In this document: piece after piece, positions 4,383-21,239 of the stretch | How the letters are laid out: every line of letters starts with the position of its first letter | Position numbering within the stretch: position 1 is the stretch's first letter | IMG/VR virus record: IMGVR_UViG_3300022200_000445 | Coordinates: 1-23,568 of that record | DNA from: a virus | Reading direction: 5' to 3' (one strand) | DNA: 23,568 nucleotides | The notes under the pieces: model-generated | What the model was told of the DNA's origin: nothing | Seen by the model: only the letters and a program-made list of their open reading frames with translations | Databases searched by the model: none | Program-made: the position numbers and the translations under genes

Positions 4383-4688
4383 TTATGTTTGCTCCAGTAC
4401 GCTTACGATTACATCAGCTGATGCAGCGGTATCGCTAGTAACTACAACAGTATTAGTTGTCTCTAGAATGATCTTACCATCAAGTACTGATACTGCTGAG
4501 TTAGCGGGGATAGGAACACCCTTCACTAAGTAGACACCAGCAACCTGGACATCTACAGCAATCTGAGAAGCAGTTACATTAGAGATATTAAGTCCAATGA
4601 CAACTGCTGTAGTTGAAGCACCTACCGTATACGTAGTGACAGGCGAGGTGCCAACACTAGCTGAGGTGTAGTTAAGAAAGATATTCAT
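4383..4688 (-). CDS. Small beta-rich virion-type protein
   Basis: A 101-residue protein rich in Val, Thr, Ser and Ala with alternating beta-strand pattern (TTYTVGASTTAVVIGLNISN, VYLVKGVPIPANSAVSVLDGK). This type is common near phage fibres and looks like a single beta-sandwich domain, with no catalytic motif. The ATG overlaps the stop of the HNH gene by four bases (ATGA). A similar strand pattern is seen in the 120-aa protein at 19905-20267. Likely structural; exact role unknown. Confidence 0.7.
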   Translation of the reverse strand: MNIFLNYTSASVGTSPVTTYTVGASTTAVVIGLNISNVTASQIAVDVQVAGVYLVKGVPIPANSAVSVLDGKIILETTNTVVVTSDTAASADVIVSVLEQT

Positions 4689-6681: not shown

Positions 6682-8391
6682 TTAGCGTCTAGCCGCTGTA
6701 GTGAATTCTAATTGGAAACCCTTGAGCGAGTAAGGGATCGATACGCCTGAGTCAATAACACGTAGCGCTACTGAGAAGCCTGAACCTTCAACTGGCTGTC
6801 TGACGAGAGGGTCTGTCTGACCACCGTAGGTTGCCACTCCGTAAACACTAATGCCATACAAAGCTACAACCTTGGTAGAGTCGAAAGGATAGGCTGCAGG
6901 TCGTGGTGAGCTAGATGACTCGTAGTCGTAACGAAGGAATAGGTCAGTGTTGATAGCACCCTCTGGAGCGTAGTTAATGATTACACGCTGGAATGCTTTA
7001 CGGATACCTGGGTCACCAGCTGTGATGTCAGGGCTACGATAGCGACCAATGATAGTTGTACCATCAAACGTATTACCTTGCTCAGCCCGATATACGTAGC
7101 CGTGGAAGTCACCCATAATCACGTAGTACTCACCTAGGTACTCCTCCGTATCACTGCAGTAGGGCTTAATGGCCTTTGTTGTAGCGAACTCGTAGGACTG
7201 CTCTGTGCGAGTACAGATAACACCTTGAGTGGTACTGATGTCAACGTCCGTAGAGCTAAAGAAGATACGGTACTGAGTCTTGTTAGGGATAACTAAAGCA
7301 TCAAACTCATCTACATCACTCCTATCTTGGAATAACTCTTGGATTGGCTTAGAGATTGTACCTAACTCAACGTCACCAATCTTGTCTGTACCAGCAATAG
7401 TACGTAGACCGTCTGGACCAAGGAATACAACATCACCAGCAAACTCTTTGATAGTCCAGCCGTTACGGCAACCAATCTCACGAGTAATAGGTTGCAGTGT
7501 GAAGTCAGCTTGTGAAGAACCTGTAAGCTTGTATATACGGTTAGCTGAGAAGATGTACAAGCTATCACGGAATACAATCATACCTGTTACAGCTGAGTCA
7601 ACTACAAAGCTACCAGCCCCGTTAGCTACTGAGAAGTCATCTAAAGTAAGAGGAGCTGTGTAGATAATCTCTTGTGGGTTAGATGACATTCCTGCATAGA
7701 AACCAGTATTCTTGAACACTGAGATATAGTGAGGGTCAGCTGGAGCATTAGTTCCATTTACATCAGTAACAGAAGTACCATCCCAGTAAGAAGCATTGTT
7801 AGCTCCGTCAGCAAAGGCAAGCAGCTCAGTACCGTTGAAGTTGATACGACGGAAGGTGTACTTCATAGCACCTGTACGGCCAGAGTCCACAACAGTCCAA
7901 GTTTGGTATACTGCTGCAGCGTCTAAGTGAGCTACTGCTGTAGTACCGTTAGCACCTCGTGTACAGCCCGTGAAGGTAGTTGTAGTTAAGCCTGTGTACG
8001 CGATCTGCTCAGAACCAATAATGATAGTACCTGTAACAGTGAATCCAGTTGTGCTTGCTACAGTAACTGTGGTAGCTACATCTGATAGTGCACCACTAAG
8101 TTCATTGATTGAATCAGTAGAACGGTAGATAGCTGTACCACGGGCAGCAATTACTTCACCTTGGTAAAAGGCTGACATCAGTACTGGCTCAGTAGGAGCT
8201 GCAGTAAAGGGTACGACCTCAGATGCCCACTTCTCGTGACCATTGATACGACGGTACCCACCAGCTGTGTCTGGTTCGAAGTTCTCTAGCTCAAGGGCCA
8301 TCCCTGGTTGTACAGAGAAGTTAGACTTGTTTAGAACAAGACCACCTTGTAGAGGAAAGATAAAGGGGCTCAGGCCACTTGTGTCTGCCAT
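6682..8391 (-). CDS. Tail nozzle / tubular protein B-like
   Basis: A 569-residue protein. The N-terminus (FIFPLQGGLVLNKSNFSVQPGMALELENFEPDTAGGYRRINGHEKW) is typical of phage tail-stabilisation/nozzle proteins of the T7 gp12 and P22 gp10 kind, which fold as a beta propeller and form a hexameric tip on the tail tube. Residues 105-161 look like an inserted small beta domain (VTVASTTGF, GSEQIAYTG, CTRGANGT). Propeller-like strands follow (IVFRDSLYIFSANRIYKLTG, GDVVFLGPDGLRTIAG). Residues 445-569 form a C-terminal beta domain ending in LKGFQLEFTTAARR. It lies directly between tube protein A and the first fibre, the expected order for a short-tailed phage. Placement and fold type are convincing; exact structural family needs a profile search. 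Confidence 0.85.
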   Translation of the reverse strand: MADTSGLSPFIFPLQGGLVLNKSNFSVQPGMALELENFEPDTAGGYRRINGHEKWASEVVPFTAAPTEPVLMSAFYQGEVIAARGTAIYRSTDSINELSGALSDVATTVTVASTTGFTVTGTIIIGSEQIAYTGLTTTTFTGCTRGANGTTAVAHLDAAAVYQTWTVVDSGRTGAMKYTFRRINFNGTELLAFADGANNASYWDGTSVTDVNGTNAPADPHYISVFKNTGFYAGMSSNPQEIIYTAPLTLDDFSVANGAGSFVVDSAVTGMIVFRDSLYIFSANRIYKLTGSSQADFTLQPITREIGCRNGWTIKEFAGDVVFLGPDGLRTIAGTDKIGDVELGTISKPIQELFQDRSDVDEFDALVIPNKTQYRIFFSSTDVDISTTQGVICTRTEQSYEFATTKAIKPYCSDTEEYLGEYYVIMGDFHGYVYRAEQGNTFDGTTIIGRYRSPDITAGDPGIRKAFQRVIINYAPEGAINTDLFLRYDYESSSSPRPAAYPFDSTKVVALYGISVYGVATYGGQTDPLVRQPVEGSGFSVALRVIDSGVSIPYSLKGFQLEFTTAARR

Positions 8392-8406
8392 GCTACTTAA
8401 CCCCTA

Positions 8407-9126
8407 TTAAAGTACAGAAGGAAAGACCGATGTTGCACCAGACCTTTCAATCACAGTTGAACGTACGTAAGGATAGCGGTTAGTCAAGATACTACGGATG
8501 TCTGAGATACCCTCTTGGAAGCGAGCCCAGTTAGCGTTGTACTGATCTAGCTCCCCACGGTACTGGTACGCATACGCTGTAGCACCGTCTGTTACTACTT
8601 GACGATAAGCCTCAGGTATACCTGGGACATCAGTAGAAGCTGAGAGGGTTGTAGGTTGGTCGTAGTACTCATACTTAAGCGAGTAAGCCTTGTCTGGGTA
8701 AGGGTACAGGAGATAGTTGTTATCTGGTGTACGTACAACCCAACGAGGTTCACCGCCTTGTAGAGTAGCATCATCTTCTTGATCGATGTACTTATCAATG
8801 TATTCTTTGTAGTCTAAACGACCAAGACCACCCCCTGCAGTGCCAAGACTAGAATCCTTAACCAAACGGAAGGTATCATAGTCAACGGTCTTAGCTGTAG
8901 TCGGGATGGCATAACGTGTTGTACCAGCTACCAGAACCTCAGTCTTTGAAGCGTGGTTGAAGGGCCAGTTGAATTCACGGTGGTTAATGAAGTTAATAGA
9001 ATCATTCACAGCATTCTTACACTGGATCTGGAATCCACGAGCTGTGTTGAAGTTAGAGGAAGTAAGTGTGACCTCGTTCATACGAGCTAATACTTCATTA
9101 GTAATGTCGAGGTATGTATAAGCCAT
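8407..9126 (-). CDS. Tail tubular protein A-like head-tail adaptor
   Basis: A 239-residue mainly helical protein starting MAYTYLDITNEVLARMNEV. This and the following NAVNDSINFINHREFNWPF are the hallmark of the T7 gp11/P22 gp4-like tube or gatekeeper family, which forms a dodecameric ring under the portal. The middle part (RYAIPTTAKTVDYDTFRLV, PDNNYLLYPYPDKAYSLKYEYYD) is beta, and the C-terminal part (IPEAYRQVVTDGATAYAYQYRG) is helical again. The length is slightly above that of T7 gp11. It lies 15 bases upstream of the nozzle gene and 63 bases after the small beta protein, with a strong hairpin in that gap. Confidence 0.87.
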   Translation of the reverse strand: MAYTYLDITNEVLARMNEVTLTSSNFNTARGFQIQCKNAVNDSINFINHREFNWPFNHASKTEVLVAGTTRYAIPTTAKTVDYDTFRLVKDSSLGTAGGGLGRLDYKEYIDKYIDQEDDATLQGGEPRWVVRTPDNNYLLYPYPDKAYSLKYEYYDQPTTLSASTDVPGIPEAYRQVVTDGATAYAYQYRGELDQYNANWARFQEGISDIRSILTNRYPYVRSTVIERSGATSVFPSVL

Positions 9127-9165
9127 TTCTTACCTTGTCTATAAAGTCTTTACAGGGTTAGAGAC

Positions 9166-9181
9166 CCCCGAAGGGGCCCCT
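9166..9181 (-). other. UUCG-capped stem-loop upstream of the tail tube gene
   Basis: On the minus-strand transcript GGCCCC, UUCG, GGGGUC folds into a short GC stem with the very stable C(UUCG)G tetraloop. It stands alone in the 63-base gap between two genes. No U-run follows, so a terminator is unlikely or weak; a processing, end-protecting or attenuating hairpin fits better. Seen directly in sequence; role inferred. Confidence 0.6.
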
Positions 9182-9189
9182 AGTTAGTC

Positions 9190-9600
9190 TTATGCGAGTA
9201 CGTCGCGTACTACTTCAGCAGCGTCACGAGTTGCCTCGTTTACGTCTACTACGATAGCCCATACACGTGCAGTAGCACCTGTAGTTACACCATCAATAAC
9301 TGTTACAGCGTCGATAGTGTCTGCGTCAGCAGAGATACCGAGTGTCTGTGTACCGAATACCATTGTACCAGCAGCTGCAGCGTCAACGCTAGTAGCAGCC
9401 ATGAAGGTAGTTGTAGCATCAGATACAGCAACAGTGAATGTAGTGATATCTTCTACTGCTGTGATGACTTCTACACCAGCAGCAAGAACAAGAGTACCAG
9501 CGCCAACGGCTGGGCCTACAACAGTACCGGAAGCGGTACCAAGGTTAACCGTCTTTTCGACCATATAGGCCTTAGACGTAAGGGAAGTTGAGAGAGCCAT
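9190..9600 (-). CDS. Small beta-rich virion protein after the capsid gene
   Basis: A 136-residue protein of very biased composition (Ala, Thr, Val, Gly, Asp; few charged or aromatic residues except near the C-terminus, ATRDAAEVVRDVLA). Strand-like segments (GTLVLAAGVEVITAV, TTFTVAVSDATTTFMAA) suggest a beta domain. Position just after the major capsid gene, separated by a hairpin-bearing 68-base gap, would suit a head decoration or head-completion protein. I do not recognise a named family. Expression could be as high as that of the capsid gene, since no separate promoter is seen. Confidence 0.68.
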   Translation of the reverse strand: MALSTSLTSKAYMVEKTVNLGTASGTVVGPAVGAGTLVLAAGVEVITAVEDITTFTVAVSDATTTFMAATSVDAAAAGTMVFGTQTLGISADADTIDAVTVIDGVTTGATARVWAIVVDVNEATRDAAEVVRDVLA

Positions 9601-9637
9601 TTAGGAATCCTTTCAAGATGTATGACTAGCAAAAGGA

Positions 9638-9661
9638 GGTACCCCAGTTACCCAGGGTACC
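9638..9661 (-). other. Stem-loop after the major capsid gene
   Basis: GGTACCC (9638-9644) and GGGTACC (9655-9661) form a 7-bp stem with a 10-nt loop, starting just 8 bases after the capsid stop codon. On the minus strand it is followed by TCCTTTTG, a short T tract. It may act as a partial terminator that lowers expression beyond the capsid gene, or as a 3' protecting hairpin. The TCC of the downstream sequence also lies close to the next gene's leader. Confidence 0.55.
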
Positions 9662-9668
9662 CACTGTC

Positions 9669-10742
9669 TTATGCCAAGTTGTACTTAGCTGTTACCAGAG
9701 CTTCTGGACGCAGAATCTTACGACCGTAGAGGTGCATACCACGAACGATGTCAGCAAAGCTGTCAGGGTCACGGTAAGTCTCAGTCTTGTTGATCTGCTC
9801 AGCAGAAGCTACAGCGGAGTCATGACCACCAACGATAACACCATAGTCAGTGTTCTGGTTAGCAGTACCCGTAGTAGCAGCACCACCGCCGACCTGTGGA
9901 AGGTTGTTGGATACATACACGCGGAAGCCGTTCCACTTGTTCATAACCAGACCGTTACGCAGACCACCAGAATCGCCGAAGTCAGCGTTCAAGAAGCGGG
10001 AGTCTTCGTCCATCAGGACTTCGAGCATGACTGGATCGATTACCAACCAACGGCCATCTTTGTCAACGTTCTGCTGGTCGAGCAAACGACCCATACGGTT
10101 GATAAGCATGACAGGAGAAGCGTAAGCTGTTGGCAAAGCAGTAGCACCAGGCAAACGAGCAGCAACTGGGATCGAGTGATCTGCAGCGGAGCCAGTTGTG
10201 ATGTTACCGAAAGAAGACTTGATGAGCTTCATGGAAGTCAGCAATTCGTCTGTACCAGCAGTCGAAACAGCAACAGTACCGTTTACCTGATCGTTAACAG
10301 TGTCACCAGCTGTGTGCAAAGCAGACTGCTTGTAACCTGAGAGGTAACCCAGAACTTCTTGGTCAAGCTGGTCAGCCAAGCGGTAAGCCGCACGGTTGGT
10401 TGCAAGGTCCATGAAGTTAACGTGGCTGTGAGCCTCTTCAATGTCGTCGATCTTGAAAGCGAAGTAGTTAGCTTTGTCGATTGTCAGGGAGAAGTCTTCG
10501 TCATCAAGATCTTGAGCAGCGATCTGTGTACCACGAGCATAGCTGGATACAGAGATTTCAGGCTCTTTGATGATCTTAACAGTATCGCCTTGGGAAGCGA
10601 TCTCACCGAAGTAATCGGAGTTAGTGATGTCGTTGGTGATCGACTTCTTACGGAAAGCAAGTTGTACTTTCTTAGAATAGATTACCGAAGAGAAGTTGCC
10701 GTTAGGCAGGTTGCCGTGACCGGCTGCAGATTGAAAAGCCAT
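9669..10742 (-). CDS. Major capsid protein
   Basis: 357 residues from the ATG at 10742, MAFQSAAGHGNLPNGNF. I prefer this start because GGAGG lies eight bases before it; the frame stays open 45 bases further upstream but without a comparable site. The protein reads like an HK97-fold major capsid protein of podoviruses: an N-terminal arm, SYFGEIASQGDTV-like strand region (NSDYFGEIASQGDTVKII), a long spine-like helix (NRAAYRLADQLDQEVLGYL), a P-domain segment (GRWLVIDPVMLEVLMDEDSRFL) and a C-terminal strand set ending in YGRKILRPEALVTAKYNLA. It follows the scaffold gene after a 336-base untranslated region holding its own promoter. No cleavage by a protease is indicated, since no protease gene is nearby. 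Several hundred copies build the head. Confidence 0.9.
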   Translation of the reverse strand: MAFQSAAGHGNLPNGNFSSVIYSKKVQLAFRKKSITNDITNSDYFGEIASQGDTVKIIKEPEISVSSYARGTQIAAQDLDDEDFSLTIDKANYFAFKIDDIEEAHSHVNFMDLATNRAAYRLADQLDQEVLGYLSGYKQSALHTAGDTVNDQVNGTVAVSTAGTDELLTSMKLIKSSFGNITTGSAADHSIPVAARLPGATALPTAYASPVMLINRMGRLLDQQNVDKDGRWLVIDPVMLEVLMDEDSRFLNADFGDSGGLRNGLVMNKWNGFRVYVSNNLPQVGGGAATTGTANQNTDYGVIVGGHDSAVASAEQINKTETYRDPDSFADIVRGMHLYGRKILRPEALVTAKYNLA

Positions 10743-11025
10743 TTGAATATCCTCCAAAGATGTTTGGCTTGATAAGACAAGACACACGTATAGTATTGAT
10801 TAAAGGGAAGGGTGTGTCTCAGTTAAGAGAACCTAAACAATCATTCTAAGAGGCTAATCGTTTCTAGGGTGCAACCTACCTTCGCTTGCCAGCTAGAGTA
10901 GATCGGGCCTATACTTAATTAGGTAGGTCTTTGTGTTGATTATTAGCGTTCAGTAATGGACCCAAAGGGGTCTACTGTAGTGGTCTAACAGGTATCCTAC
11001 TGAAAGGGGCTATTAGACCTCTAAA

Positions 11026-11054
11026 GTTATACCATACTCGATACCTGCTGTCAA
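11026..11054 (-). promoter_or_regulatory. Strong sigma-70 promoter for the capsid gene
   Basis: TTGACA (11049-11054), 17-base spacer, TATAAC (11026-11031), with TGG just before the -10 giving an extended -10. Eleven of twelve consensus positions match. Transcription would start near 11019 and run into the capsid gene. This allows more capsid than portal or scaffold message. Confidence 0.88.
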
Positions 11055-11071
11055 GGCTTAATATCGAGTAT
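11034..11071. repeat. 10-bp inverted repeat around the capsid promoter -35, operator candidate
   Basis: ATACTCGATA (11034-11043) and its perfect reverse complement TATCGAGTAT (11062-11071) lie on either side of the -35 box; one arm fills most of the spacer. The centre-to-centre distance is 28 bases. This suits a regulator binding over the promoter. As RNA it would also fold into a 10-bp hairpin ending the scaffold transcript, but no U-run follows. Confidence 0.6.
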
Positions 11072-11078
11072 AGAGGTA

Positions 11079-12002
11079 TTAGCGAGCTTTACCAGATACG
11101 TCGTAAACGAACTTACCTGAAGCCATTGCTTCTTGGATAGCATCGTAGCGATCCTCGAATTGTTTATCTGACATCTTAGCTACATCAGATTCCTTGATGG
11201 TTGAACCTGAGTCGTTAGAGTCAACAGATGTACGGCTTCCCTTAGATACAGTCTTAGCTGCATCCTTAGCACGAGCCTTCTTATCTGAAGGTGTAAGACC
11301 ATTGTCTACTTTGTAGAGGTCAAGTACACGGATAACACTGTCAGCATCGTCTGAGTTCTCGTAGAGAGCATCACGTACCCACTTAGGTTGCTCTTCAACC
11401 CAGTCGTGGAACTTGTCAGCATCACGGAGTTCATCAAAGTCAGCGTGTGCCTTACGGATGTTTGTCTCAGCCTTAGTACGAGTAGCCTCATACTTAGCCT
11501 CGTCGAGCTCCTTGAAGCGTCCCTCAGCTGCAGCAAAGCGCTCAGAGGCCTTCTTGTCAGCGATGGTCTCCACAATGGCAGCTACGTCAGGGTACTTACG
11601 GGCCCAAGCTTCGATGTCTTCATCTGACTTAGGGGCACGGATAGAATCGGATTGAACAGTAGAGGCTACGTCAAGCTTCTCTTTCCACTCCTTCTCCTTC
11701 TCAGCCATATGACGACGAAGATCACCGTACCGCTTCTTGAAGGACTTCTCCTCACGGCTTAGCTTGGAGTCGTCTTCTTCATCCTCTTCTACTTGAGGCT
11801 CAGCTTCGACTACGTCCTCTTCCTCCTCAGTATCATCGACCTCTTCCGTGTCTTTAGATACGTTAGTACGGCCTTTCATCAACTCTTCTAGTTCCTTCTC
11901 ATCCTTGTCTAGGCGAGCTTGCTTAGCTGAGTAGTTGGAACCACGTCCTGAGAAACTAGCTGTATCAGGGGTTGCGTTAGTTGCCATTGTGTTGGTAGAC
12001 AT
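11079..12002 (-). CDS. Head scaffolding protein
   Basis: A 307-residue, very hydrophilic protein. Residues 30-100 are strongly acidic (DTEEVDDTEEEEDVV, QVEEDEEDDSK); residues 80-200 are predicted long charged helices; the C-terminal third includes HADFDELRDADKFHDWVEEQPKWVRDALYEN and a short basic end. High charge, coiled-coil character and position directly before the major capsid gene are the classic signs of a podovirus internal scaffold, which templates procapsid assembly and then leaves. AAAGGA stands seven bases before the ATG. No protease domain is fused, so the scaffold is probably expelled intact. Confidence 0.87.
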   Translation of the reverse strand: MSTNTMATNATPDTASFSGRGSNYSAKQARLDKDEKELEELMKGRTNVSKDTEEVDDTEEEEDVVEAEPQVEEDEEDDSKLSREEKSFKKRYGDLRRHMAEKEKEWKEKLDVASTVQSDSIRAPKSDEDIEAWARKYPDVAAIVETIADKKASERFAAAEGRFKELDEAKYEATRTKAETNIRKAHADFDELRDADKFHDWVEEQPKWVRDALYENSDDADSVIRVLDLYKVDNGLTPSDKKARAKDAAKTVSKGSRTSVDSNDSGSTIKESDVAKMSDKQFEDRYDAIQEAMASGKFVYDVSGKAR

Positions 12003-12073
12003 TGTATTTCCTTTGTGTTGGGGCCAGCGTTATGCTGAGTAGCCTTAATTATTATTGTAGGAGTTGTTAGTTA

Positions 12074-15000
12074 TTACTTCTTCTTGCGAGGCTGGATAAG
12101 ACCGCCCCTGTTCTGAGGCCCTACTCGAGTGCCTCCACCCGAACCCGTACCTACCTCTGTTCCTGCTTTCATCTGACTACCAGAAAGCTTCGAAGCTGTC
12201 TTAGCGCTAACCCCAGCCTTACGGGCTGCGTTCATACTCTTTGCTTTAGACTCAGAAGTTGGAGTACTTACTTGGTTGGCCTTCTGTTGTGTAGCTGCTT
12301 TGTTTGTAGCTGCATTTGCTTTTGCACGTTCCATTGCCTCATTCCTACCGCCATCAGACGAACTAGACTTAGAACTAGAACTAGAGTCAGGTCTACTTGC
12401 TAAGCCAGCTTTAGAGGAAGAAGAAGATGGAGCAGCAGCTCGCTGGGTAGCATCCGTAGACCAGTTAGCTCCATACTCAGCTTTGACATTCTCAGCCAGG
12501 CGGTCTCCATCGCGCCAAGACTTAGGCACTAGCTCAAGTCCCTTTTCCTTAACAAAGGAATTGTACTGAGCATCAAGTTGGTCAGCTAGGTCTTCTCGAC
12601 CCATATCGCGAAGTGTAAGTGCATTAGCAGCCATCTGTGCTGCCTTGTTTGTATTGACAAACTTACCAACCAGACCACCAGCTAGACCACCACTTAGCAA
12701 GCCTTTAGCGGCTCCACCAAGGGACTCCAACCAGCCCTTCTCTTCTTCTTCTTCAGCACCTTCACCAGCAACACCGAGAGTAGACATCGACTGATTAAAG
12801 AGTGTTTCAGGGTCAGAGTAATCGTACTTCTTCATCCAAGCATTAGGATCACCTTTTGGTGCTGCAGGCGCTGGGCTGCTGTCTCGCTCACGCTTCTGCT
12901 GTACTGGTGCTGTGACGGGCATACAGACATTAGTCTCTGCATTCCAAGTGTACCCCTCAGGGCATGTCGGAGTTACTTCAGCTTCAGCTGTAGGCTTATA
13001 GGGAGTACCAGGGGCTTGTCCTGTAACGTCTGTTTCAGTAGAGAAGCCCATACCATGTGCATAAGGATTGTAGGAGCTTGCGTAGTTAGCTGGGTTATAC
13101 TCACCCTCCCCGTAGACCATACCACCTTCAGCAAAAGCTGCTGGCATAGCTTGACCTTGTACGGCAGGTGGAGCTGCTTGAGCAGGAACTGCTCCTGTTG
13201 CCATAGCCTGTTGCTGCGCTGTACCCTGTGGTTGTGGTTCTTGGATAAAGATACCCTTAGCCTTCAGCATATTGGTGACAGAAGCATCTTTACTTGCAGC
13301 AGCCTTAACCCGATCAATGATACCGTCTACGTCCATGCCCTCTACGAGGCCACCTGTAGCGTACCCATCGAGAGAAGCCAAGTCACCACCGAGGGTGTAC
13401 TCTTCTTCCATCTCTTTCATGTCCTCTTCAACGGGATCACCACCTACGCGGCCATCCTCTTTCATCTCCTCAAGACCTTCTTTAGCCTTGTTACGGAGCT
13501 TCTCAAAGTAGGAGACACCGAAGTACTTCACTACATCGGCAGGAACTACGTACTCACCTTCAGATAGCTTAGCATCTACGTCATCCCGTACGTCTACAGC
13601 ATTGGACCCAGTAGGGATCTCATTACCAGATACAGGATCGATGTCCATACCATCTGTGGCTAAGCCACCTTCTTTATACATCTTATTCATTGTATCTACT
13701 TCTCCTTGATTTGTAGCTAGACCACCTTCAGCAAATCTTAGGTCTCCGCTGGTTATTCTATCTGGATTAAACTCTGCTCTAGCATCTCTTAATACTGCAG
13801 GACTATCCTTTGGCCTGTCTGTTAACATAATAAAGCTTGTACTGCCTGGGTCTTCAATATTATTGGTATAGGGTATGTGGGTAAAACCTTGCTCTGCTAT
13901 ATCTTTTCTTAGCTGTACTGCAGTCTCTGTTCTATCAGGTAAGATGCTGTTGGAGCCATCAAACTTTTTCCACTCATAGTCGGATATGAATTTTCCTAAC
14001 TCTTCTTCAGAGAAGGTGTCCGTTGCGTTATCAAAAACCTCTTCTGTTTTCTTACCTAAAAGCCTTGCCGCCATCTCCTTTGTAAAAGGTTTATCCGTTC
14101 TTGCTCGTAGTTCCATCGTAGCACCACCACTACCACCTGTATAATAGTCACGTTCTGCAGCAGCACGAGGAGTACCAACGTGTACACCTAATATATCTTG
14201 AGTAAGCTTGGTACCCCCCTCAGGATCAGTATAAGAAGGGTCAAACTCTGTAAAGTCGTCAGGGGATTTGGAAGTGTGGTAGACAGTATCTGAAAAACCT
14301 AAATCTTCCGCTCTTTGGTCTGCCTCTGTCCTAGGCCGAGAGAAAGATGGCCTACCAATCTCGTCTTTGTATGGTAGTGGTCTGGTAGTTAACGTGGCAA
14401 GGTTTGGATCTGCTTTTTCTGGGAAGTAAGAACTTAAGTCCATTATAAGGTCATGTGTGTCACCAGATGAAACACCTGCAGCCCGTGCTGGGTCCGTTAT
14501 TTTTGTTTGTATGTAATCTTTGTAGTTAGGGTCTTTAAAGTGAGGCAGATCTCTTGCGACCTCAAGCAGATCATCATCAGAAAAACCCTCCAAGACTTTT
14601 AACTTATTAGCAGCCGCTTCCTGCATAGAAGGATAGGCAAGATTGCCTAAGTAATCCTTTTTCAGATCAGCTAAACCCTCTTCTGGGGTAAGGCTTACTT
14701 CGTCAGCCCAAACTGAACCTGCCCACAAATCTTCCGATGACACATCTCTTGGATCACCTAGTGTGCTACCTGTAGGGGTCTGATTGGGAGAAGGTACATG
14801 GTTTAAAACCTTCTTACCTTTATTAAAAAACTCTCTAGCACCCTTCTTAATAGCAGCTGCAGCAGCATCCCCTAGACCAGGAACAAGACCTATAATAGTA
14901 GCACCTCCTAAGGCACCTGCTAGATAATAGTTTGGCTCTTCCTTTTGCAGCTCATCATAGACATCCTTGGCAGCCATAGCGTCACCCACAACAGGTGTCA

Positions 15001-15160
15001 TTTCTGCTACAAAAGTGGCTGCATCTCTGAAAGTAATGTCATCTAAAGGTCTAGTATCTTTAACCAACTTGTCTGTATAAGCAGACCACTCACTAGGAGT
15101 ACCACCTGCTATCACTTCTTCTGTCTGATCGTAGGCATCCCATGAGTCTTTAGGGTCCAT
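12074..15160 (-). CDS. Large head-region protein with ADP-ribosyltransferase-like domain
   Basis: A 1028-residue multi-part protein. Residues 46-110 are hydrophobic and Gly/Ala-rich with VVGDA and VPGLGDA motifs, like the pre-toxin segments of polymorphic toxins. Residues 290-470 resemble toxin-type ADP-ribosyltransferases: VYHTS (H295), GVHVGTP (325-331), GFTHIPYTNNIEDPGSTSFIML (E436) and a closing EFNPDRI. Residues 475-640 form a module familiar from marine phages (DPVSGNEIPTG, KLSEGEYVVPADVVKYFG) with [FY]xxGG[LM] motifs. Residues 640-1028 are low complexity: a Cys pair (CPEGYTWNAETNVC), an acidic run, Ser tracts and a basic end (QPRKKK). The ATG overlaps the 68-aa stop (TAATG) after GGAG. 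The gene's first ~1.45 kb is AT-richer with AGA/AGG arginine codons. Placement between portal and scaffold suggests an internal or ejected virion protein. The transferase call is by motif resemblance only. Confidence 0.62.
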   Translation of the reverse strand: MDPKDSWDAYDQTEEVIAGGTPSEWSAYTDKLVKDTRPLDDITFRDAATFVAEMTPVVGDAMAAKDVYDELQKEEPNYYLAGALGGATIIGLVPGLGDAAAAAIKKGAREFFNKGKKVLNHVPSPNQTPTGSTLGDPRDVSSEDLWAGSVWADEVSLTPEEGLADLKKDYLGNLAYPSMQEAAANKLKVLEGFSDDDLLEVARDLPHFKDPNYKDYIQTKITDPARAAGVSSGDTHDLIMDLSSYFPEKADPNLATLTTRPLPYKDEIGRPSFSRPRTEADQRAEDLGFSDTVYHTSKSPDDFTEFDPSYTDPEGGTKLTQDILGVHVGTPRAAAERDYYTGGSGGATMELRARTDKPFTKEMAARLLGKKTEEVFDNATDTFSEEELGKFISDYEWKKFDGSNSILPDRTETAVQLRKDIAEQGFTHIPYTNNIEDPGSTSFIMLTDRPKDSPAVLRDARAEFNPDRITSGDLRFAEGGLATNQGEVDTMNKMYKEGGLATDGMDIDPVSGNEIPTGSNAVDVRDDVDAKLSEGEYVVPADVVKYFGVSYFEKLRNKAKEGLEEMKEDGRVGGDPVEEDMKEMEEEYTLGGDLASLDGYATGGLVEGMDVDGIIDRVKAAASKDASVTNMLKAKGIFIQEPQPQGTAQQQAMATGAVPAQAAPPAVQGQAMPAAFAEGGMVYGEGEYNPANYASSYNPYAHGMGFSTETDVTGQAPGTPYKPTAEAEVTPTCPEGYTWNAETNVCMPVTAPVQQKRERDSSPAPAAPKGDPNAWMKKYDYSDPETLFNQSMSTLGVAGEGAEEEEEKGWLESLGGAAKGLLSGGLAGGLVGKFVNTNKAAQMAANALTLRDMGREDLADQLDAQYNSFVKEKGLELVPKSWRDGDRLAENVKAEYGANWSTDATQRAAAPSSSSSKAGLASRPDSSSSSKSSSSDGGRNEAMERAKANAATNKAATQQKANQVSTPTSESKAKSMNAARKAGVSAKTASKLSGSQMKAGTEVGTGSGGGTRVGPQNRGGLIQPRKKK

Positions 15161-15366
15161 TATGGTTTCTCCGATCTAGCGCCGTTGACTTTATCACGCA
15201 GCTGTTTAAGGCTACGTAATGCTTTGATTTCACCTTGTATGCGGTGTAGTTCAGCAGGTTCAATCCGCTGCTCTAGTTGTTTTTGAGCAAAGACGATACG
15301 TGTATCTACTTCTTCTAAGAAGGAGTCCCAGATCAACTTATCGTTAACTAGTCTTTTGATTTGCAT
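15160..15366 (-). CDS. Small helical protein between portal and the large head protein
   Basis: 68 residues, almost entirely helical and charged (WDSFLEEVDTRIVFAQKQLEQ, GEIKALRSLKQLRDKVNG). Similar short proteins follow the portal gene in other podovirus-like genomes; no function is known to me. Stop and the next ATG overlap by one base (TAATG), so the two are probably translated together. It may be a minor head or portal-associated factor. Confidence 0.72.
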   Translation of the reverse strand: MQIKRLVNDKLIWDSFLEEVDTRIVFAQKQLEQRIEPAELHRIQGEIKALRSLKQLRDKVNGARSEKP

Positions 15367-15389
15367 TGTACTTCTCTCTAAGGAGGCTG

Positions 15390-15475
15390 AGAGGCCTCTG
15401 TATACCTTTTGGCTACCCTAGCCTACCTTTGAGCGAGAAGGCCCTCTAGGAGCCCTCTCTGTGGCTCTCAGAGCC
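15390..15475 (-). other. Cluster of small palindromes after the portal gene
   Basis: The 101-base gap after the portal has several short dyads: AGAGGCCTCT (15390-15399), GGCTA-CCC-TAGCC (15411-15423) and GGCTC-TCA-GAGCC (15463-15475, over the portal stop). No long U-run follows any of them. They could fold the message between portal and the next gene; no ORF with a start site is seen here. Confidence 0.45.
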
Positions 15476-17600
15476 CTTCAGGTGGCATACCACCCCCTGT
15501 GTTACCTGAGAATCCTTGTTCTCCTGGGACTGGAGCAGAGCCTGTACCCATACCCCCAGCCTGTGCTCCACCAGTAGGTGCAGCTGGGGCAGCGTTAGGA
15601 TCAGCAGGAGGAGCAGCAGGAGGAGGGTTCTGCTCTTGGAACTTCTTGAGGATCTCAGCCTGTACAGCAGCTTCACCAATAGAGTTAGCTACCTTGTCTG
15701 GGTCGAGGTCCATAGACTCAGCGATCTCACGGATGATGAAGTCCATCTTAGCAAATGGAGCCAAGGCTGGGTTCTGTACAACCTGCAAGAACTGAAGAAG
15801 ACGTTGACTACGTACTTCGTTAGCCATAAGAGAAGATGTACCACGAGCTTTGACTTCTAGGTCACCCTTGATCTCTGGGTCATGATCGAACTGCATGTTG
15901 AATGAGAAGAAGGCTTTACCGATAGGCCCAAGCAAGTAATCATCTACGTTCTTGATAACTGTACGGATAGAACCGTTAGCAGCTGACATGAGCATAGAGA
16001 TGCCTGAGGCAGTGCGACCAACACCTGATACACCAGTCTGACCATGCGAGAAGCTAGGTAGACCAGTAGACTCATCAGCTAGTACACGAGCCTTATCAAA
16101 CATCTGCATGTTCTCGTTAGACACGTTAGGGAAGGATGTACCGAAGATAGCTTGACCTGGGGCACCACCACTACGGCGGAAGACCTTGCCTGGGTAAATC
16201 TCTAGGTCTTGACCAGGAACTAGGTTGTTCTCGTCTACCTCAAGGATAAGGTTACCTGAGAGTGCAGCATTGTCAACAGCCATACGCATGAAGCCGTTCA
16301 TGAGTGTCTGTGTATCGTCCATGTTCTCAGCAAGTCCTACACCGAAGAAGGAGTAAGGGTTTACTTCGTATGGTACTGCGTAGTACGGAATGATTTGTGG
16401 GTTGAATGGGTTCATAACCAAACGAAGGACTTGACCGTTACATACCCAGATGTTTACATTAAGCTGGTCAGCCTTACGTAGTTCACGAGGGATGTCTACG
16501 TCATGATCCTCAAGGATCTCACGATCTACAAAGCCCCAGAACTCCAGAACTTCGTAACGCTCTGTCTGAGTCTCCTGTGAGTCGTCTTCCATAGCCTGTT
16601 CCCACCACTCTTTAGTGTAGGACTCACCGTATGTCAAAGCGAGGTCGATAGAGTTGTTACGGAAGAAAGGACGGCGCTTAAGAGCACGCATCTGTGAGCG
16701 AGACATCTTGTGACGCTCGACTACGTACTCAGCTTCGTCCATGTTGTTAGCGTCTGGGTCTGGATAGAAATTCCATACGGACACAGAGTCACACGATGGG
16801 ATAGTTTTGATGCGAGGCTTGTAGTTACCCTCGTCATCCCAGTGAGGATACTCTTTATCTACAGCAAAAGGACCCTTCATGATGCCTGTACCGAACAAAG
16901 CACACTCAAATGCTGCTGTACGTAGCTTCTTAGAGGCGTTAGACTCCTCCAGCTGGTCATGAATCTTCTTTTCCATCTTCTTAGCAGCGTACATAGCTGG
17001 ATGGAAGGTAACTTCAGTGGCTGTACGGCCTTCACCCTCCTTAAGAAGGTCAGCAACGGGCTCTAGCTTGCTCTTCATTCCTCCAAGACGCTCCTGGAGG
17101 TCCATGAGGGTTTCTCCTGGACGTAGTTTAGCGTCTTCTGGGGAGATTTCAGGCTTAGCTTGGGCAGAACCCTCGCCTTTAGCCTTCTGCATCTCAGGAT
17201 TGGACTCAAAGTACACTGATTCTGCAATGCCTTCAGGCAAAGAGGTAGGATCAATAGAGATTGGGAACTTGTTATTGCCGAAAAGTACCTCAACAAGCTG
17301 CCCGTAGGCTGCTAGAACCTTAGTCTTAGTAACTTTAACGAAGATACGGGACTTCTCAGTAGATGTAAAGCGAACATCAGGACCGTACAAGCCCCGATAG
17401 TTGCGATAGGAGCGTACCCAACGCTGCTCATCTTGGTAACGGGCTGTCTCAGCCTTCCTGAAGCGCTCCGTAACGAAGCTGACGACTGTACCAACAGGTG
17501 AATCGATTGTCTCACCTTCACTCATATCATCAATAAAAGAAGATTCTGACTCTTCCATGTTGTACTCAGTGGATGACTTGTCGTCTTCGAACGTATCCAT
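15468..17600 (-). CDS. Portal protein
   Basis: 710 residues, a usual size for podovirus portals. The ring forms at one head vertex, is the passage for DNA and holds the packaging motor and tail. Residues 1-35 are an acidic lead; residues 40-130 have the helical start common to this family (TARYQDEQRWVRSYRNYRGLYGPD, TKVLAAYGQLVEVLFG). The middle is alpha/beta (FGTGIMKGPFAVDKEYP, SVWNFYPDPDANNMDEAEYVVER). ALTLMNGFMRM-type helices (DDTQTLMNGFMRMAVDNAALSG) and GRTASGISMLMSAANGSIRT are portal hallmarks near the wing and stem. The last ~75 residues are Pro/Ala/Gly-rich and disordered. AAGGA lies seven bases before the ATG, and the gene is 12 bases after the terminase. Confidence 0.9.
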   Translation of the reverse strand: MDTFEDDKSSTEYNMEESESSFIDDMSEGETIDSPVGTVVSFVTERFRKAETARYQDEQRWVRSYRNYRGLYGPDVRFTSTEKSRIFVKVTKTKVLAAYGQLVEVLFGNNKFPISIDPTSLPEGIAESVYFESNPEMQKAKGEGSAQAKPEISPEDAKLRPGETLMDLQERLGGMKSKLEPVADLLKEGEGRTATEVTFHPAMYAAKKMEKKIHDQLEESNASKKLRTAAFECALFGTGIMKGPFAVDKEYPHWDDEGNYKPRIKTIPSCDSVSVWNFYPDPDANNMDEAEYVVERHKMSRSQMRALKRRPFFRNNSIDLALTYGESYTKEWWEQAMEDDSQETQTERYEVLEFWGFVDREILEDHDVDIPRELRKADQLNVNIWVCNGQVLRLVMNPFNPQIIPYYAVPYEVNPYSFFGVGLAENMDDTQTLMNGFMRMAVDNAALSGNLILEVDENNLVPGQDLEIYPGKVFRRSGGAPGQAIFGTSFPNVSNENMQMFDKARVLADESTGLPSFSHGQTGVSGVGRTASGISMLMSAANGSIRTVIKNVDDYLLGPIGKAFFSFNMQFDHDPEIKGDLEVKARGTSSLMANEVRSQRLLQFLQVVQNPALAPFAKMDFIIREIAESMDLDPDKVANSIGEAAVQAEILKKFQEQNPPPAAPPADPNAAPAAPTGGAQAGGMGTGSAPVPGEQGFSGNTGGGMPPEGL

Positions 17601-17612
17601 TGTAATTCCTTA

Positions 17613-19202
17613 TCAGTAACCGAATGTCGAGTCAGCAGCTTGGAAGCCTGATCTCTGTGAGTTGGGGTCGTAGTCGAAGAGACTGCTACGAGGGCGTGTC
17701 ATGAGTCCGTAACGTAGGGCGTCGTAGCCGTGGTCAATAGGACTCTTAGTATCTACATCGTCTAGGTTGTTCTTGTCGAGAGGGAGAGACGGTAGCTCCG
17801 AGATAATGTTACGACAAGTGTTAAAGAATATGATACGAGGTTCTTCTGTGAAGTCATCGATCTGTAGTCTGCGGTGTACTTCGTTCTTACCAGCAATACG
17901 AGAGCCACGGGATCGATCTGATGGTCGCCAACGGCAACCTTTGTTAATCATCTGCTCAGCGAGTGAAGGACCAGTGTCGCCTCGGTTGTGCCACAGTGAG
18001 CTGTCTAGTACACCGTACCGTATCTTCTCACCACGTTCAGCCTCTAGGATCATACCAGCTAAGTCTTGTGCTGTAACCTTGCTGCAGTAGAGCTCACGAT
18101 AGATCACGATCTGTTCAGAGGGTGACACAGCAAACCAGAGTACTGCTGTCATCGAACCGTATCCGTAGTCACACGCTCTGAACTTAGCCCAATCACTAGG
18201 GATATCGAAGGGAGCGACTACGTGTACCTTAGGGTTGAACTCTGAGAAGGCAGCTCCTTCTGAGATACTCCAATCACCGTCTAGCAACTGTCTCCGCTGA
18301 TGCTCAGGCATAGAGAGAAGGTTAGCTTCGTACATACCATCTTCTGACAAGTACGGGTTGTTGAACAGGTTAGCTGGGATGAACCTACGCTTAAATAAGG
18401 GTTGACCCTCGTTCGTGTGACCCTTAGGCCATCGGATAGTTTCACCGTGTTCGTCTGTAGCCCAGAAGGACGTATTGGCTGGAGCAGGGTCAATGAACAT
18501 CTTCTTAACCCAGAAGTGCCCAGGACCACCAGGGTTTGTTGTAGCCCGCATGTACAAGGGAAGACCTGAGGCCTTAGTTGTACGTAGACGAGAGCGCATG
18601 TAGTTCCAAGCGTAAGGTGTAGGCCACTGAGTCATCTCGTCGAGACCAATCCAGTTAAAGGCTTGACCTTGGTAACGCATAACGTCATCGTCTCGGTCTA
18701 GGTAGGACATCCAGAGAGTAGCACCGCTAGGGGCCACCCAAGTCTTATCTCGTTCCATGAACTTGATACCTGGAATAGCTTTAGGGTAAAGCTGTTTAGA
18801 TACTGAGATAAGTTCACGAAGTTCCTCTGTGCTACGACGGACTAGGAGTCCACGGGAGTGAGGGTTGTTAAAGAATCGTACTGGGTCAGCTACCATCGCG
18901 TAGGACTTACCACCACCAGCTGCACCACCGTAGAGAACCTCTTGCTCACAGGACGCTAGGAAGTCTTCCTGTGGGCCTGGGTTAGCTTCAAAGATAATCT
19001 CTTGAGCCTTCTTGATATCGATAGGTTCGGGTCTAGCTGTCGCTGGAGCCTTCGCCTGTATCGGTGTCAAGGTTTCTTGTACGTCTTCCACCGAGACGGT
19101 CTTCTTCGAGCTTGCGGGCCGCTTCCGAGGCTTCTTTGTAGCGCCTTTCATAGACTCGATAGGATTGGGCCGCGTTCCGCCGTTTTGATTCGATGCTGAC
19201 AC
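17613..19202 (-). CDS. terL: Terminase large subunit
   Basis: A 529-residue DNA-packaging ATPase/nuclease. Walker A is GAAGGGKS at about 93-100, Walker B WIGLDEM at about 184-190 (D188, E189), coupling motif ATTNPGG at about 220-226. The nuclease domain starts at DYGYGS (D344), continues with VLDSSLW (D399) and ends with PIDHGYDALRYG. These fit the terminase_6-type enzymes that cut and pump DNA into the procapsid. The GTG at 19202 has AGGA ten bases upstream; an ATG at 19151 is an alternative without a clear ribosome site. Either way the first 40-57 residues, a basic Lys/Pro stretch, lie inside the end of the upstream HTH gene in another frame. The ATPase core starts only after this overlap. 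Confidence 0.93.
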   Translation of the reverse strand: MSASNQNGGTRPNPIESMKGATKKPRKRPASSKKTVSVEDVQETLTPIQAKAPATARPEPIDIKKAQEIIFEANPGPQEDFLASCEQEVLYGGAAGGGKSYAMVADPVRFFNNPHSRGLLVRRSTEELRELISVSKQLYPKAIPGIKFMERDKTWVAPSGATLWMSYLDRDDDVMRYQGQAFNWIGLDEMTQWPTPYAWNYMRSRLRTTKASGLPLYMRATTNPGGPGHFWVKKMFIDPAPANTSFWATDEHGETIRWPKGHTNEGQPLFKRRFIPANLFNNPYLSEDGMYEANLLSMPEHQRRQLLDGDWSISEGAAFSEFNPKVHVVAPFDIPSDWAKFRACDYGYGSMTAVLWFAVSPSEQIVIYRELYCSKVTAQDLAGMILEAERGEKIRYGVLDSSLWHNRGDTGPSLAEQMINKGCRWRPSDRSRGSRIAGKNEVHRRLQIDDFTEEPRIIFFNTCRNIISELPSLPLDKNNLDDVDTKSPIDHGYDALRYGLMTRPRSSLFDYDPNSQRSGFQAADSTFGY

Positions 19203-19494
19203 GTTTGTTAAGTCCTACATGAGAGATGTATCGTCCTGACTCCTCTGTTAGCCAACGGGCTACCATACGAAGACTATACTCCGCTAAGTACTTCTTAGCT
19301 TGTTCTAGCATCTCTAATTCTAATGGGATAGGTTGGAGGACATTCTCATCCTCAGGATCTTGCTCGTACCCGAAAGGGATGTATCTACCTACGCGTACGA
19401 TAGGGAACCATTCACCATCTTCACCTCGCTTTGGTATCTTCCAAGCTTGGTTAGTTATGATGTTGTTCATTGATGGAGCTTGTTTTCTAGCCAT
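19033..19494 (-). CDS. HTH protein resembling part of a serine-recombinase domain
   Basis: About 153 residues from the ATG at 19494; a TTG at 19524 would add ten residues. Residues 31-100 (VGRYIPFGYEQDPED...LQPIPLELEMLEQAKKYLAEYSLRMVARWLTE) look like the 'recombinase' helix-turn-helix region of large serine recombinases, where a GY--D... loop precedes 'YS---IA-WL'. The catalytic resolvase domain is absent, so it cannot be a recombinase; a DNA-binding role in packaging or regulation is more likely. Residues 105-132 are a charged helix and the tail is Gly/Ser-rich. Its last 170 bases overlap the large terminase. A promoter -10 (19496-19501) ends one base before the ATG. No ribosome site is evident at any start. 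Confidence 0.68.
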   Translation of the reverse strand: MARKQAPSMNNIITNQAWKIPKRGEDGEWFPIVRVGRYIPFGYEQDPEDENVLQPIPLELEMLEQAKKYLAEYSLRMVARWLTEESGRYISHVGLNKRVSIESKRRNAAQSYRVYERRYKEASEAARKLEEDRLGGRRTRNLDTDTGEGSSDS

Positions 19495-19495
19495 A

Positions 19496-19524
19496 CTTAT
19501 ACCATATGTGTTCTTGTTTGTCAA
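19496..19524 (-). promoter_or_regulatory. Sigma-70 promoter at the start of the HTH/terminase genes
   Basis: TTGACA (19519-19524), 17-base spacer, TATAAG (19496-19501), with TGG before the -10, matching the capsid promoter closely. It lies four bases after the small-terminase stop. The expected start of transcription (about 19489) is inside or just beyond the first codons of the HTH gene, so translation from the promoter's own message would need a leaderless or internal start (Met codons at 19494 and 19470). It could mainly serve terminase and portal. Confidence 0.78.
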
Positions 19525-19527
19525 GCA

Positions 19528-19905
19528 TTAGTCTTCGTCTTTAGAAGACCTTTTAGCTGGGAGAATGAATACTGGTTCAGAAGTAGTTACTTCTACCTTC
19601 TCAGTCTTAACGAAACCAGCACGGTCCATCAAGTCCTTAGCTGCAGCCATACGCTCTTTAGCACCGAGCATGTCTTTAGCACCCATCACCTTAAACATGG
19701 TGTAGGCTGCTTTAGTAGAACTCTGTGCAATGAACTTACGGGTAAGCTCCGCGATCTCATCTACGAGAGAGGCTGTGACAGAAGAAGTAGGTACGTTGTC
19801 TGAGTAACCAGCTAGCTTCTTAGCGGTCAGTGGGTCACCCTCAGCTTCCTCAAAGAGGACATCAAGGAACATCTGCTGCTTGTCTGTTAGTTCACGTTTA
19901 GCCAT
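19528..19905 (-). CDS. terS: Terminase small subunit
   Basis: A 125-residue protein directly before the terminase region. Residues 5-50 (LTDKQQMFLDVLFEEAEGDPLTAKKLAGYSDNVPTSSV) match the start of phage small terminases, where a helix-turn-helix binds the packaging site, and the rest (VDEIAELTRKFIAQSSTKAAYTMFKVM...ERMAAAKDLMDRAGF) is the helical oligomerisation part. The tail EPVFILPAKR is a usual ending in this family. GAGGA lies seven bases before the ATG, and its start overlaps the previous stop (TAATG). It should form a ring that recognises phage DNA and hands it to the large subunit. Confidence is good by context and motif. Confidence 0.85.
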   Translation of the reverse strand: MAKRELTDKQQMFLDVLFEEAEGDPLTAKKLAGYSDNVPTSSVTASLVDEIAELTRKFIAQSSTKAAYTMFKVMGAKDMLGAKERMAAAKDLMDRAGFVKTEKVEVTTSEPVFILPAKRSSKDED

Positions 19906-20267
19906 TAGATATTCCTCACTGGGTTGTAGAAAAGTTTACCGGAGATAGATACATCAAAAACACCTCCAACTTTGTATGCTAGAATCTTATCACCTTGATG
20001 AAGATACAAACGTGCCTGAGTAATCACGGAGTATACACCGTTTGCTTGAATCTTGTAATCCCTAATCAAGTAATGGTAAGTATCATCAGCTGAGTGATAC
20101 ATAAGTATATTTATACTATCAGTCCCAGTTCCGTGCGTTATCGTAAGAAAAGAGACCTCTGCATCGTGGTTGTTAGGTACAGTGTAAATAAGGTCTGACC
20201 CAGCCCCAGTCGTCGTGCTTACGATTGAAACACCTTCAACAAAAGTAGTGTACTCTTGATTTGGCAT
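19905..20267 (-). CDS. Beta-rich protein of unknown function before the terminase
   Basis: A 120-residue protein with regular beta-strand pattern (YTVPNNHDAEVSFLTITHG, NILMYHSADDTYHYLIRDYKIQANGVYS, ARLYLHQGDKILAYKVG). It resembles small phage virion or fibre-associated domains; the pattern is similar to the 101-aa protein at 4383-4688, though sequence identity is low. Its composition is somewhat AT-richer than its neighbours. The ribosome site is weak (AAAGA). A structural role is plausible, not shown. Confidence 0.65.
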   Translation of the reverse strand: MPNQEYTTFVEGVSIVSTTTGAGSDLIYTVPNNHDAEVSFLTITHGTGTDSINILMYHSADDTYHYLIRDYKIQANGVYSVITQARLYLHQGDKILAYKVGGVFDVSISGKLFYNPVRNI

Positions 20268-20270
20268 TTG

Positions 20271-20555
20271 TTAGTCTTTAACTACAAGTTGGGAGGGTGC
20301 CTTAGGAGACTCCTGTGGCTCTTCAAGCTTACTCTTTTTAACAGGTTTTTTAACTGTTTCTTTAGTAGCTTTAACTTCTTGAGCTTCCGCCTGAGCTGCC
20401 TTACAGATAAGAACCATAAGATCATCATCGCTTGAGAGGAAGGAACCGTAAGGGTCCATCTGTCCTGCAACGTCACCACGGCTGTTCACAATCTGGTCAG
20501 TCGAGATAAAGTAACCTGCTTTGTTCAACTCTTTTTCATACTTCTTAAAGATCAT
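20271..20555 (-). CDS. Small unknown protein with Lys/Pro tail
   Basis: 94 residues. The first ~50 (KYEKELNKAGYFISTDQIVNSRGDVAGQMDPYGSF) may be a small alpha/beta domain; the rest is a flexible Lys/Glu/Pro tail (ETVKKPVKKSKLEEPQESPK). GGAAG lies before the ATG, one base after the stop of the preceding gene. No family recognised; likely expressed with the packaging genes. Confidence 0.65.
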   Translation of the reverse strand: MIFKKYEKELNKAGYFISTDQIVNSRGDVAGQMDPYGSFLSSDDDLMVLICKAAQAEAQEVKATKETVKKPVKKSKLEEPQESPKAPSQLVVKD

Positions 20556-20556
20556 A

Positions 20557-20931
20557 TTACTTCTTCCTTTGTGTAGGCTTCATGGAAGCACCACAGTTAG
20601 CCTTCTTGACCATACCGCCCTTAGCGAACCCAGGCTTACGGGTCTGGGTCTTTGTGGACTTGGATGTTCCAGTCTCTTGGTAGATGTCTGCAATAGAGAT
20701 TTCAGCGAGCTGGTTACCCAAAGCACGTGCAAGGCGGTCCTTAACCTCTTTAGATTTACCTTTACCACCAAGGAGGTCTACCGCCTCTTCGGTTGTTATC
20801 TCTCCAGCGGAATGTCTTGCTGCAATGGATCTAGCCTTCGGAGACATATACTGCTGAGAACCTGGGGTGCCACTGCTGCGAGTTGCAAGTTCCTTCTTTT
20901 TAGGTGCACTCTTCTTCTTATCGTCAGCCAT
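20557..20931 (-). CDS. Basic protein with FAKGGM motif and PTQRKK tail
   Basis: A 124-residue basic protein. A Lys-rich N-terminus (KKKSAPKKKE) is followed by a helical part (MSPKARSIAARHSAGEITTEEAVDLLGGKGKSKEVKDRLARALGNQLAEISIADIY, 29-84) and a flexible tail. The tail has FAKGGMV (102-108), the same motif as in the 1028-aa head protein, and ends GASMKPTQRKK, matching 9 of the last 11 residues of the neighbouring 101-aa protein. Small proteins with such tails are common in marine phages and of unknown role; binding of packaged DNA or of the head is a guess from charge and company. Confidence 0.68.
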   Translation of the reverse strand: MADDKKKSAPKKKELATRSSGTPGSQQYMSPKARSIAARHSAGEITTEEAVDLLGGKGKSKEVKDRLARALGNQLAEISIADIYQETGTSKSTKTQTRKPGFAKGGMVKKANCGASMKPTQRKK

Positions 20932-20933
20932 GA

Positions 20934-21239
20934 TTACTTTTTCCTTTGTGTAGGTGGGTTAGATGCGCCAATGTTCTTGGCATACTTCTTAGCGTTAACT
21001 TTACGAGAGAAGCTACGGTTAGCTGACTTAGGTTTAACCTTTAGGTTACTCCTGCCATTGTCTAGTGGGTTACGGTTGCTGTGGTCTACGTCTTTACCAT
21101 CATGCTTCTTAACCTTCCCCTCCTTCTCTAGCAGACGACGAGCACGCTTACGTGCAGCATTCTTAGCTAGTTCAGACGGAGTAGACTGGAGCTCACGCTC
21201 ACGCTTGTAGTCTCGTTTGTAGTTCTTAGAACTTGGCAT
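20934..21239 (-). CDS. Very basic mini HNH-like protein
   Basis: A 101-residue protein with roughly one third Lys/Arg. Residues 45-75 (DGKDVDHSNRNPLDNGRSNLKV...SANRSF) have the D-H...N...N spacing of HNH/EndoVII-like nuclease cores, without zinc-binding cysteines. HNH proteins next to terminases are known to take part in cos-type packaging; this one is near the small terminase, but separated by three genes. The tail NPPTQRKK is shared with the next gene. Whether it is an active nuclease cannot be judged. Confidence 0.7.
   Translation of the reverse strand: MPSSKNYKRDYKRERELQSTPSELAKNAARKRARRLLEKEGKVKKHDGKDVDHSNRNPLDNGRSNLKVKPKSANRSFSRKVNAKKYAKNIGASNPPTQRKK

Follow-up and report, generated by a model that had tools for sequence, protein, structure and literature searches.

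The head of phage T4 carries Alt, an ADP-ribosyltransferase (ART) that is injected into the cell and acts on host RNA polymerase, and the ARTs of the PARP/diphtheria kind have an H-Y-E active site. Virion-carried ARTs are a theme already published under the name of polyvalent proteins (PMC5512222); no other protein-modifying domain is as frequent in these proteins as the ART, and about 44% of the phage ARTs are found in contexts suggestive of head packaging (PMC5512222, PMC9503650). The prototype of the ART-PolyVal family is the vRNAP of Roseovarius Plymouth podovirus 1 (Iyer et al. 2017, PMC5512222), and the active site of this family consists of H in strand 1, Y in strand 2 and D in strand 5; T4 Alt belongs to the R-S-E type ART clade (PMC5512222). 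HMO-2011-type phages are described as a dominant group with a wide distribution in the ocean, and five HMO-2011-type metagenomic genomes carry a DraG-like ADP-ribosyl hydrolase (PMC9038755).

The DNA analysed here (the window) is the 23,568-base virus record IMGVR_UViG_3300022200_000445, positions 1 to 23,568, and it carries the late-gene block of an HMO-2011-type podovirus in the order terminase, portal, 68-aa ORF, 1028-aa ORF, ORF at the scaffold position and major head protein. The assignment to the HMO-2011 type is based on a homologous core in the 1028-aa ORF, which occupies what is called here the slot, and on the gene order terminase-portal-small ORF-slot-scaffold position-coat, both of which were found. 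The features to which the text refers are the following:

17613..19202, minus strand: terminase large subunit (PHROGs)
15468..17600, minus strand: portal / head-tail adaptor protein (phrog_332, E 9e-78; phrog_1216, E 2e-35)
15160..15366, minus strand: 68-aa ORF between the portal gene and the 1028-aa ORF
13691..15167, minus strand: cargo cassette, absent from the sister phage L062 and near-identical in L003/L002 (dS 0.015)
12074..15160, minus strand: whole ORF of 1028 aa, with cargo (residues 1-490), conserved core (491-600) and C-terminal tail (601-1028)
14804..15037, minus strand: Gly/Ala-rich four-helix module, residues 42-119, with PVVGDA/PGLGDA motifs
14432..14692, minus strand: all-helical domain, residues 157-243 (pLDDT mostly 83-96), which accompanies the ART in several relatives
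13751..14323, minus strand: ADP-ribosyltransferase-like domain, residues 280-470
14276..14278, minus strand: H295 codon (VYH, strand 1), invariant in 23 relatives
14180..14182, minus strand: H327 codon (GVHVG, strand 2), invariant
13853..13855, minus strand: E436 codon (PYxNxxE), invariant, predicted catalytic acid
13702..13707, minus strand: Shine-Dalgarno-like AAGGAG, 11 nt upstream of the internal ATG
13688..13690, minus strand: internal ATG, M491 (MNKMYKEGG), equivalent to the start codon of the short gene in L062 (MDKMYKEGG)
13361..13690, minus strand: conserved core, residues 491-600 (DPVSGN...VRDD...LSEGEYVVPADVV), the sole part common to all 14 annotated relatives
11079..12002, minus strand: putative scaffold, by position only (matches phrog_13678, of unknown function)
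9669..10739, minus strand: major head protein (PHROGs)

The terminase, portal and head protein calls are backed by PHROGs. The initial annotation had set the large ORF between portal and scaffold; its place among the head genes and the portal hold, but the identity of the scaffold depends on position only. The tail of the ORF (601-1028) is of low complexity with a basic end, and it contains a second Gly/Ala-rich hydrophobic stretch (residues 815-850, about 12611-12718), similar ones being present in the tails of relatives. Elsewhere in the window, two small HNH-type homing endonuclease-like ORFs, recognised by eye from HVDHIIPIHG and CxxC pairs, are located among the tail genes (96-632 and 4685-5191, minus strand).

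An ART-like domain had been proposed for this protein from three motifs, and the proposal is upheld by the predicted fold, by kinship with the ART-PolyVal family and by conservation of the candidate active site. VYHTS (residues 293-297), GVHVGTP (325-331) and NNIEDPGSTSF (433-443) lie where they had been placed, residue 295 is H and residue 436 is E, and the interval first reported, 13751-15160, corresponds to residues 1-470. Two scans of viral contigs provided 41 loci with relatives of the domain; the candidate L007 was discarded as a false positive due to a chance DYEWKKFD peptide. In 23 aligned relatives, most of them 28-46% identical, H295, H327, R337, Y431, N433, E436 and S442, together with G325, E385 and P430, are invariant (ORF numbering), so that the motifs exceed chance; retention of H295 and E436 in homologues had been named beforehand as a check, and both are kept in 23/23.

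Searches of the whole ORF against Pfam, NCBIfam and PHROGs gave nothing but a sub-threshold match to ART-PolyVal (residues 292-402 of the full protein, E 0.036); with the isolated domain, hmmscan matched ART-PolyVal (PF18760) at E 0.0013 and 20 bits, below the cut-off of 31.2. At Pfam E-values up to 10, only weak matches to DUF4112, ART-PolyVal, CBM_14 and SR-25 were obtained, with no Alt or other ART family among them. A myovirus protein with 65.5 bits for ART-PolyVal (L145) was the starting point for a set of 47 distinct classic ART-PolyVal sequences. The profile-profile comparison with these, leaving out the bridging L061, reached 98.6% (E 7.1e-16, 151 columns; shuffles at most 0.2%), or, when restricted to HMO-type members, 97.3% (E 1.8e-11), the reversed and 20 column-shuffled controls staying at or below 0.3% overall. 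Concerning the two branches, L061 and L142 have adjacent standalone ART genes, one window-type and one classic, whose common flanking motifs form a sequence bridge between them, and a single protein of L039 (2167-3951) contains two ART-like stretches, one window-type at about residue 186 and one closer to classic ART-PolyVal (421-465, E 3.7e-5). Searched against PDB sequences, the domain and its profile returned chance matches only, such as FliA and Top7. No credible match to the ART was found by tblastn in 50,697 annotated phages, hence it is absent from isolates at the sensitivity of that search.

The AlphaFold2 model of the ART domain, built with the alignment of its relatives, has a pLDDT of 85.2 and a pTM of 0.83, and Foldseek against viral models (BFVD) gave 19 matches with E-values of at most 0.001, several of which bear the name ART-PolyVal (top match E 5.5e-8; first match so named E 2.7e-6). 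Model and matches fit the ART fold, which is the structural check that had been suggested. Fold matches in the PDB are weak, all with E-values above 0.001, and the leading ones belong mostly to the ART superfamily: the anti-CRISPR 6kyf comes first (E 0.039, prob 0.77), followed by (Xre-)RES toxin, a diphtheria toxin homologue, KptA and tankyrases. Unlike the domain studied here, 6kyf, presumably AcrIF11, an ART modifying Cas8f, is a small standalone protein, and the identity is 9%. The model of residues 1-491 has a pTM of 0.52, and its fold search gave nothing past the ART. Taken from profiles and predicted structure, the ART-PolyVal type of homology and fold is well supported, and the domain is almost certainly an ART homologue.

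The domain shares with ART-PolyVal the fold, the YH motif of strand 1, a conserved C-terminal (A/G)xFDP..xxDL motif and the occurrence in large multidomain proteins encoded by late phage genes. It differs in lying under the Pfam cut-off, in the H of the second strand, in R337, which aligns where the classic set mostly has Y, and in E as the likely acid; besides, it is fused to an HMO-2011-specific core, whereas ART-PolyVal is fused to RNA polymerase or peptidase. Since the published H-Y-D signature is not reproduced (H295 is kept, strand 2 has H327 and the acid is E436), the domain is classified as a divergent ART-PolyVal relative and not as a full member, and we read its site as an H-H-E variant. 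By itself, this ART is a divergent variant of an already known kind.

The less expected feature of the locus is that a small conserved core is preceded by an N-terminal half which phages gain, lose and exchange. When the protein is compared with annotated phages, only residues ~454-577 match, in 14 HMO-2011-type records. HMO-2011 gp49 and the corresponding proteins of CRP-1, -2, -3, -9, -13, -207 and others have the same slot and LSEGEYVVPADVV core as the window, and the slot protein is annotated as hypothetical in all the isolate records examined. In the cultured HMO-2011-type members the ART of the window is absent and the cargo is lacking or different: the residues ahead of the core are few in HMO-2011 and CRP-1, about 160 in CRP-2, 470 in CRP-13, 820 in CRP-9 and more than 1100 in CRP-3; CRP-603 is nearly cargo-free as well. 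Scanning with the core confirmed at least 575 contigs, from which the best 80 were taken; 51 distinct complete N-termini have 25 residues or fewer before the core in 21 cases, 41-150 in 4 and 253-1642 in 26. About half of the relatives surveyed (among the best 80 of at least 575) have no cargo, and because these contigs were picked by core similarity the cargo fractions apply to close relatives only.

The N-terminal extensions are mosaics of shared modules. Among those of the surveyed contigs, LPD23 (large polyvalent protein associated domain 23) occurs in 7/28, and there are also NlpC/P60, CHAP, DUF6782 and a putative metallopeptidase, and those of isolates include a cell-wall hydrolase (Hydrolase_2), DUF7178 and methyltransferase-like domains. 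The four-helix module of residues 42-119 is also present, with other types of cargo, in L102, L128, L132, L085, L088, L097, CRP-9 and CRP-207, and in L025/L026 cargo and core are split into separate ORFs. Methyltransferase-domain ORFs are annotated in or near the slot at 6683-7378 of L013 (CRP-13), 8204-8908 of L018 (CRP-345) and 10119-10652 of L008 (CRP-9). In the slot proteins of CRP-13 and CRP-345, a Ser/Gly run is followed by a near-identical C-terminal module (CCFIMLEARYG...GDTEF(V/I)RENGEVV), so exchange may extend to the C-terminal end. In phages whose terminase is of another type (phrog_38), the gene of the ART protein is flanked by those of terminase and portal (L006, L052), and in L040 it immediately precedes the portal gene, which indicates that portal adjacency recurs.

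At the joint between cargo and core, fused genes keep a Met that corresponds to the first residue of the short genes. The sequence AAGGAGG precedes this Met in 19/45 joints, whereas the same type of peptide ([EKQ]GG) at other places in the ORFs uses it in 3/163 cases, and GGAGG separates joints from control sites with a Fisher p of 1.5e-9. After clustering at 85% core identity the figures for AAGGAGG are 12/29 versus 2/101 (p 1e-7); clustering at 75% leaves 6 groups, with which the comparison has no power. All the AAGGAGG joints are of the FA[EQK]GG type and none of the FN[KQE]GG type, the perfect sequence is missing from 26/45 joints, and in the window AAGGAG stands 11 nt from the ATG, which is longer than ideal. 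This pattern in the DNA suggests that the core alone may be synthesised in many relatives, and the balance tilts slightly towards the internal start being used in many of them. Alternatively, the site could have been inherited as the start region of a formerly separate core gene; both readings agree in that the core stands alone functionally.

The cassette has its breakpoints in or just past the 68-aa ORF and at the joint between cargo and core. The window and its sister phage L062 share 98.6% identity over 15168-21156 (5992 bp upstream) and 95.2% over 7395-12853, but L062 lacks 13691-15167, and its gene starts with MDKMYKEGGLATDG, which corresponds to residue 491 of the window. A comparison of the window with L003 gives a dS of 0.015 for residues 1-490 and of about 2.5 (saturated) for the portal gene and the core, from which it follows that the cassette moved recently between distant phages. 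L003 is identical to L002, from another metagenome record, across their overlap, both carrying the cassette of the window; further versions are found in the backbones L005 and L210, and the versions in the four backbones (window, L003/L002, L005, L210) have 90-97% identity. The exchange of the cassette is very probably real, and its gain, loss and exchange suggest an interchangeable payload delivered to the host.

The best explanation of these observations, to which we give a probability of about 60%, is a two-part polyvalent protein in which the core acts as a seat and the ART is an exchangeable cargo delivered into the host. The core of about 110 residues and the disordered tail, conserved between the portal and scaffold-position genes, would probably seat the protein within the head or on its surface, close to the portal. 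The N-terminal cargo would comprise the four-helix module, the helical domain and the divergent ART-PolyVal-type ADP-ribosyltransferase, with H295, H327 and E436 as the likely NAD+ site. Copies bearing cargo would be built into the virion, and the cargo would come into the cell alongside the DNA and, early in infection, modify a host protein or a defence component by ADP-ribosylation, while core-only copies may arise from the internal ribosome-binding site at the joint. Judging from the genes, packaging in the virion appears reasonably likely and the chances of injection are about even. As in other polyvalent proteins, two or more functionally different domains are present (helical modules, ART and core) and the gene is situated among the virion genes of a terminase-portal phage. 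The proposed logic, that is a head-associated ART delivered with the DNA, resembles that of T4 Alt, although for the window it is deduced from genes; the ART clade appears to be different, and the phage of Alt is a myovirus whereas that of the window is a podovirus.

Several other readings have to be weighed against this one. Since the exact 3' joint of the cassette was found in no independent record, the gain and loss seen in this one contig could come from an assembly chimaera of two co-occurring phages, and the cassette-less sister L062 and the carrier L003 both come from metagenome 3300025645. Nevertheless, a chimaera is highly unlikely because the four backbones hold similar and not identical cassettes, the ORF is open across both joints, length varies at the same joint in 51 other contigs and in cultured isolates, and L002/L003 show the same arrangement in a different backbone. 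Even less probable is an accidental fusion of a polymorphic-toxin-like module, with a pre-toxin membrane segment and a toxin, to a phage gene. The initial annotation had described such an order of parts, and motifs of the PGxGDA type are indeed present ahead of the ART (PVVGDA at 56, PGLGDA at 94) in a helical segment. However, the stretch described as hydrophobic is only modestly so (top 19-residue Kyte-Doolittle mean 1.51), under the usual transmembrane level, and no pre-toxin family of Pfam matches at E up to 10. The segment also precedes quite different, unrelated modules in at least eight phages, and none of its neighbours was recognised as an immunity gene; the pre-toxin part of the annotation is consequently abandoned.

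It is also conceivable, but unlikely, that the ART-fold enzyme is made late and stays in the cell, where it would protect assembly or hit targets of the host or of competing phages. Gene position is the sole argument for packaging, the ART is an ORF apart from the core in L025/L026, and shielding of packaging components from host immunity is offered as an alternative in PMC9503650 itself. Against this, fusion to the core of a head slot fits entry functions better, peptidoglycan hydrolase and LPD domains recur at the same place, and adjacency to the portal is repeated in another phage group. With respect to activity, a catalytically dead domain serving as a structural or binding module would agree with the altered H-Y-D site, in which H occupies the GxHVG strand and R the position where the family mostly has Y. 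This possibility is rather improbable in view of the strict invariance of H295 and E436 among members mostly 28-46% identical and of a dN/dS of about 0.11 for the ART against L023, where dS is saturated; the predicted enzyme is probably active.

Extended to the whole group, the two-part protein leads to a tentative proposal, whose chances we put a little short of even: HMO-2011-type phages would have a payload slot, a conserved head-region protein with an N-terminal plug-in position for exchanged early effectors and a conserved internal ribosome-binding site at the joint, core-only and cargo forms being in the same frame, and the list of cargo would include the ART, peptidoglycan hydrolases, methyltransferase-like and other modules. 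In the literature searched, whose coverage was partial, no description of this architecture, no paper joining 'HMO-2011' and 'polyvalent protein' and no proteomics of HMO-2011-type virions were found. The cultured relatives CRP-2, CRP-3, CRP-9 and CRP-207 make the predictions on the virion and on the internal start testable by mass spectrometry. If the proposal is true, a constant anchor with exchangeable cargo would offer a direct way to list the injected effectors of uncultured marine phages.
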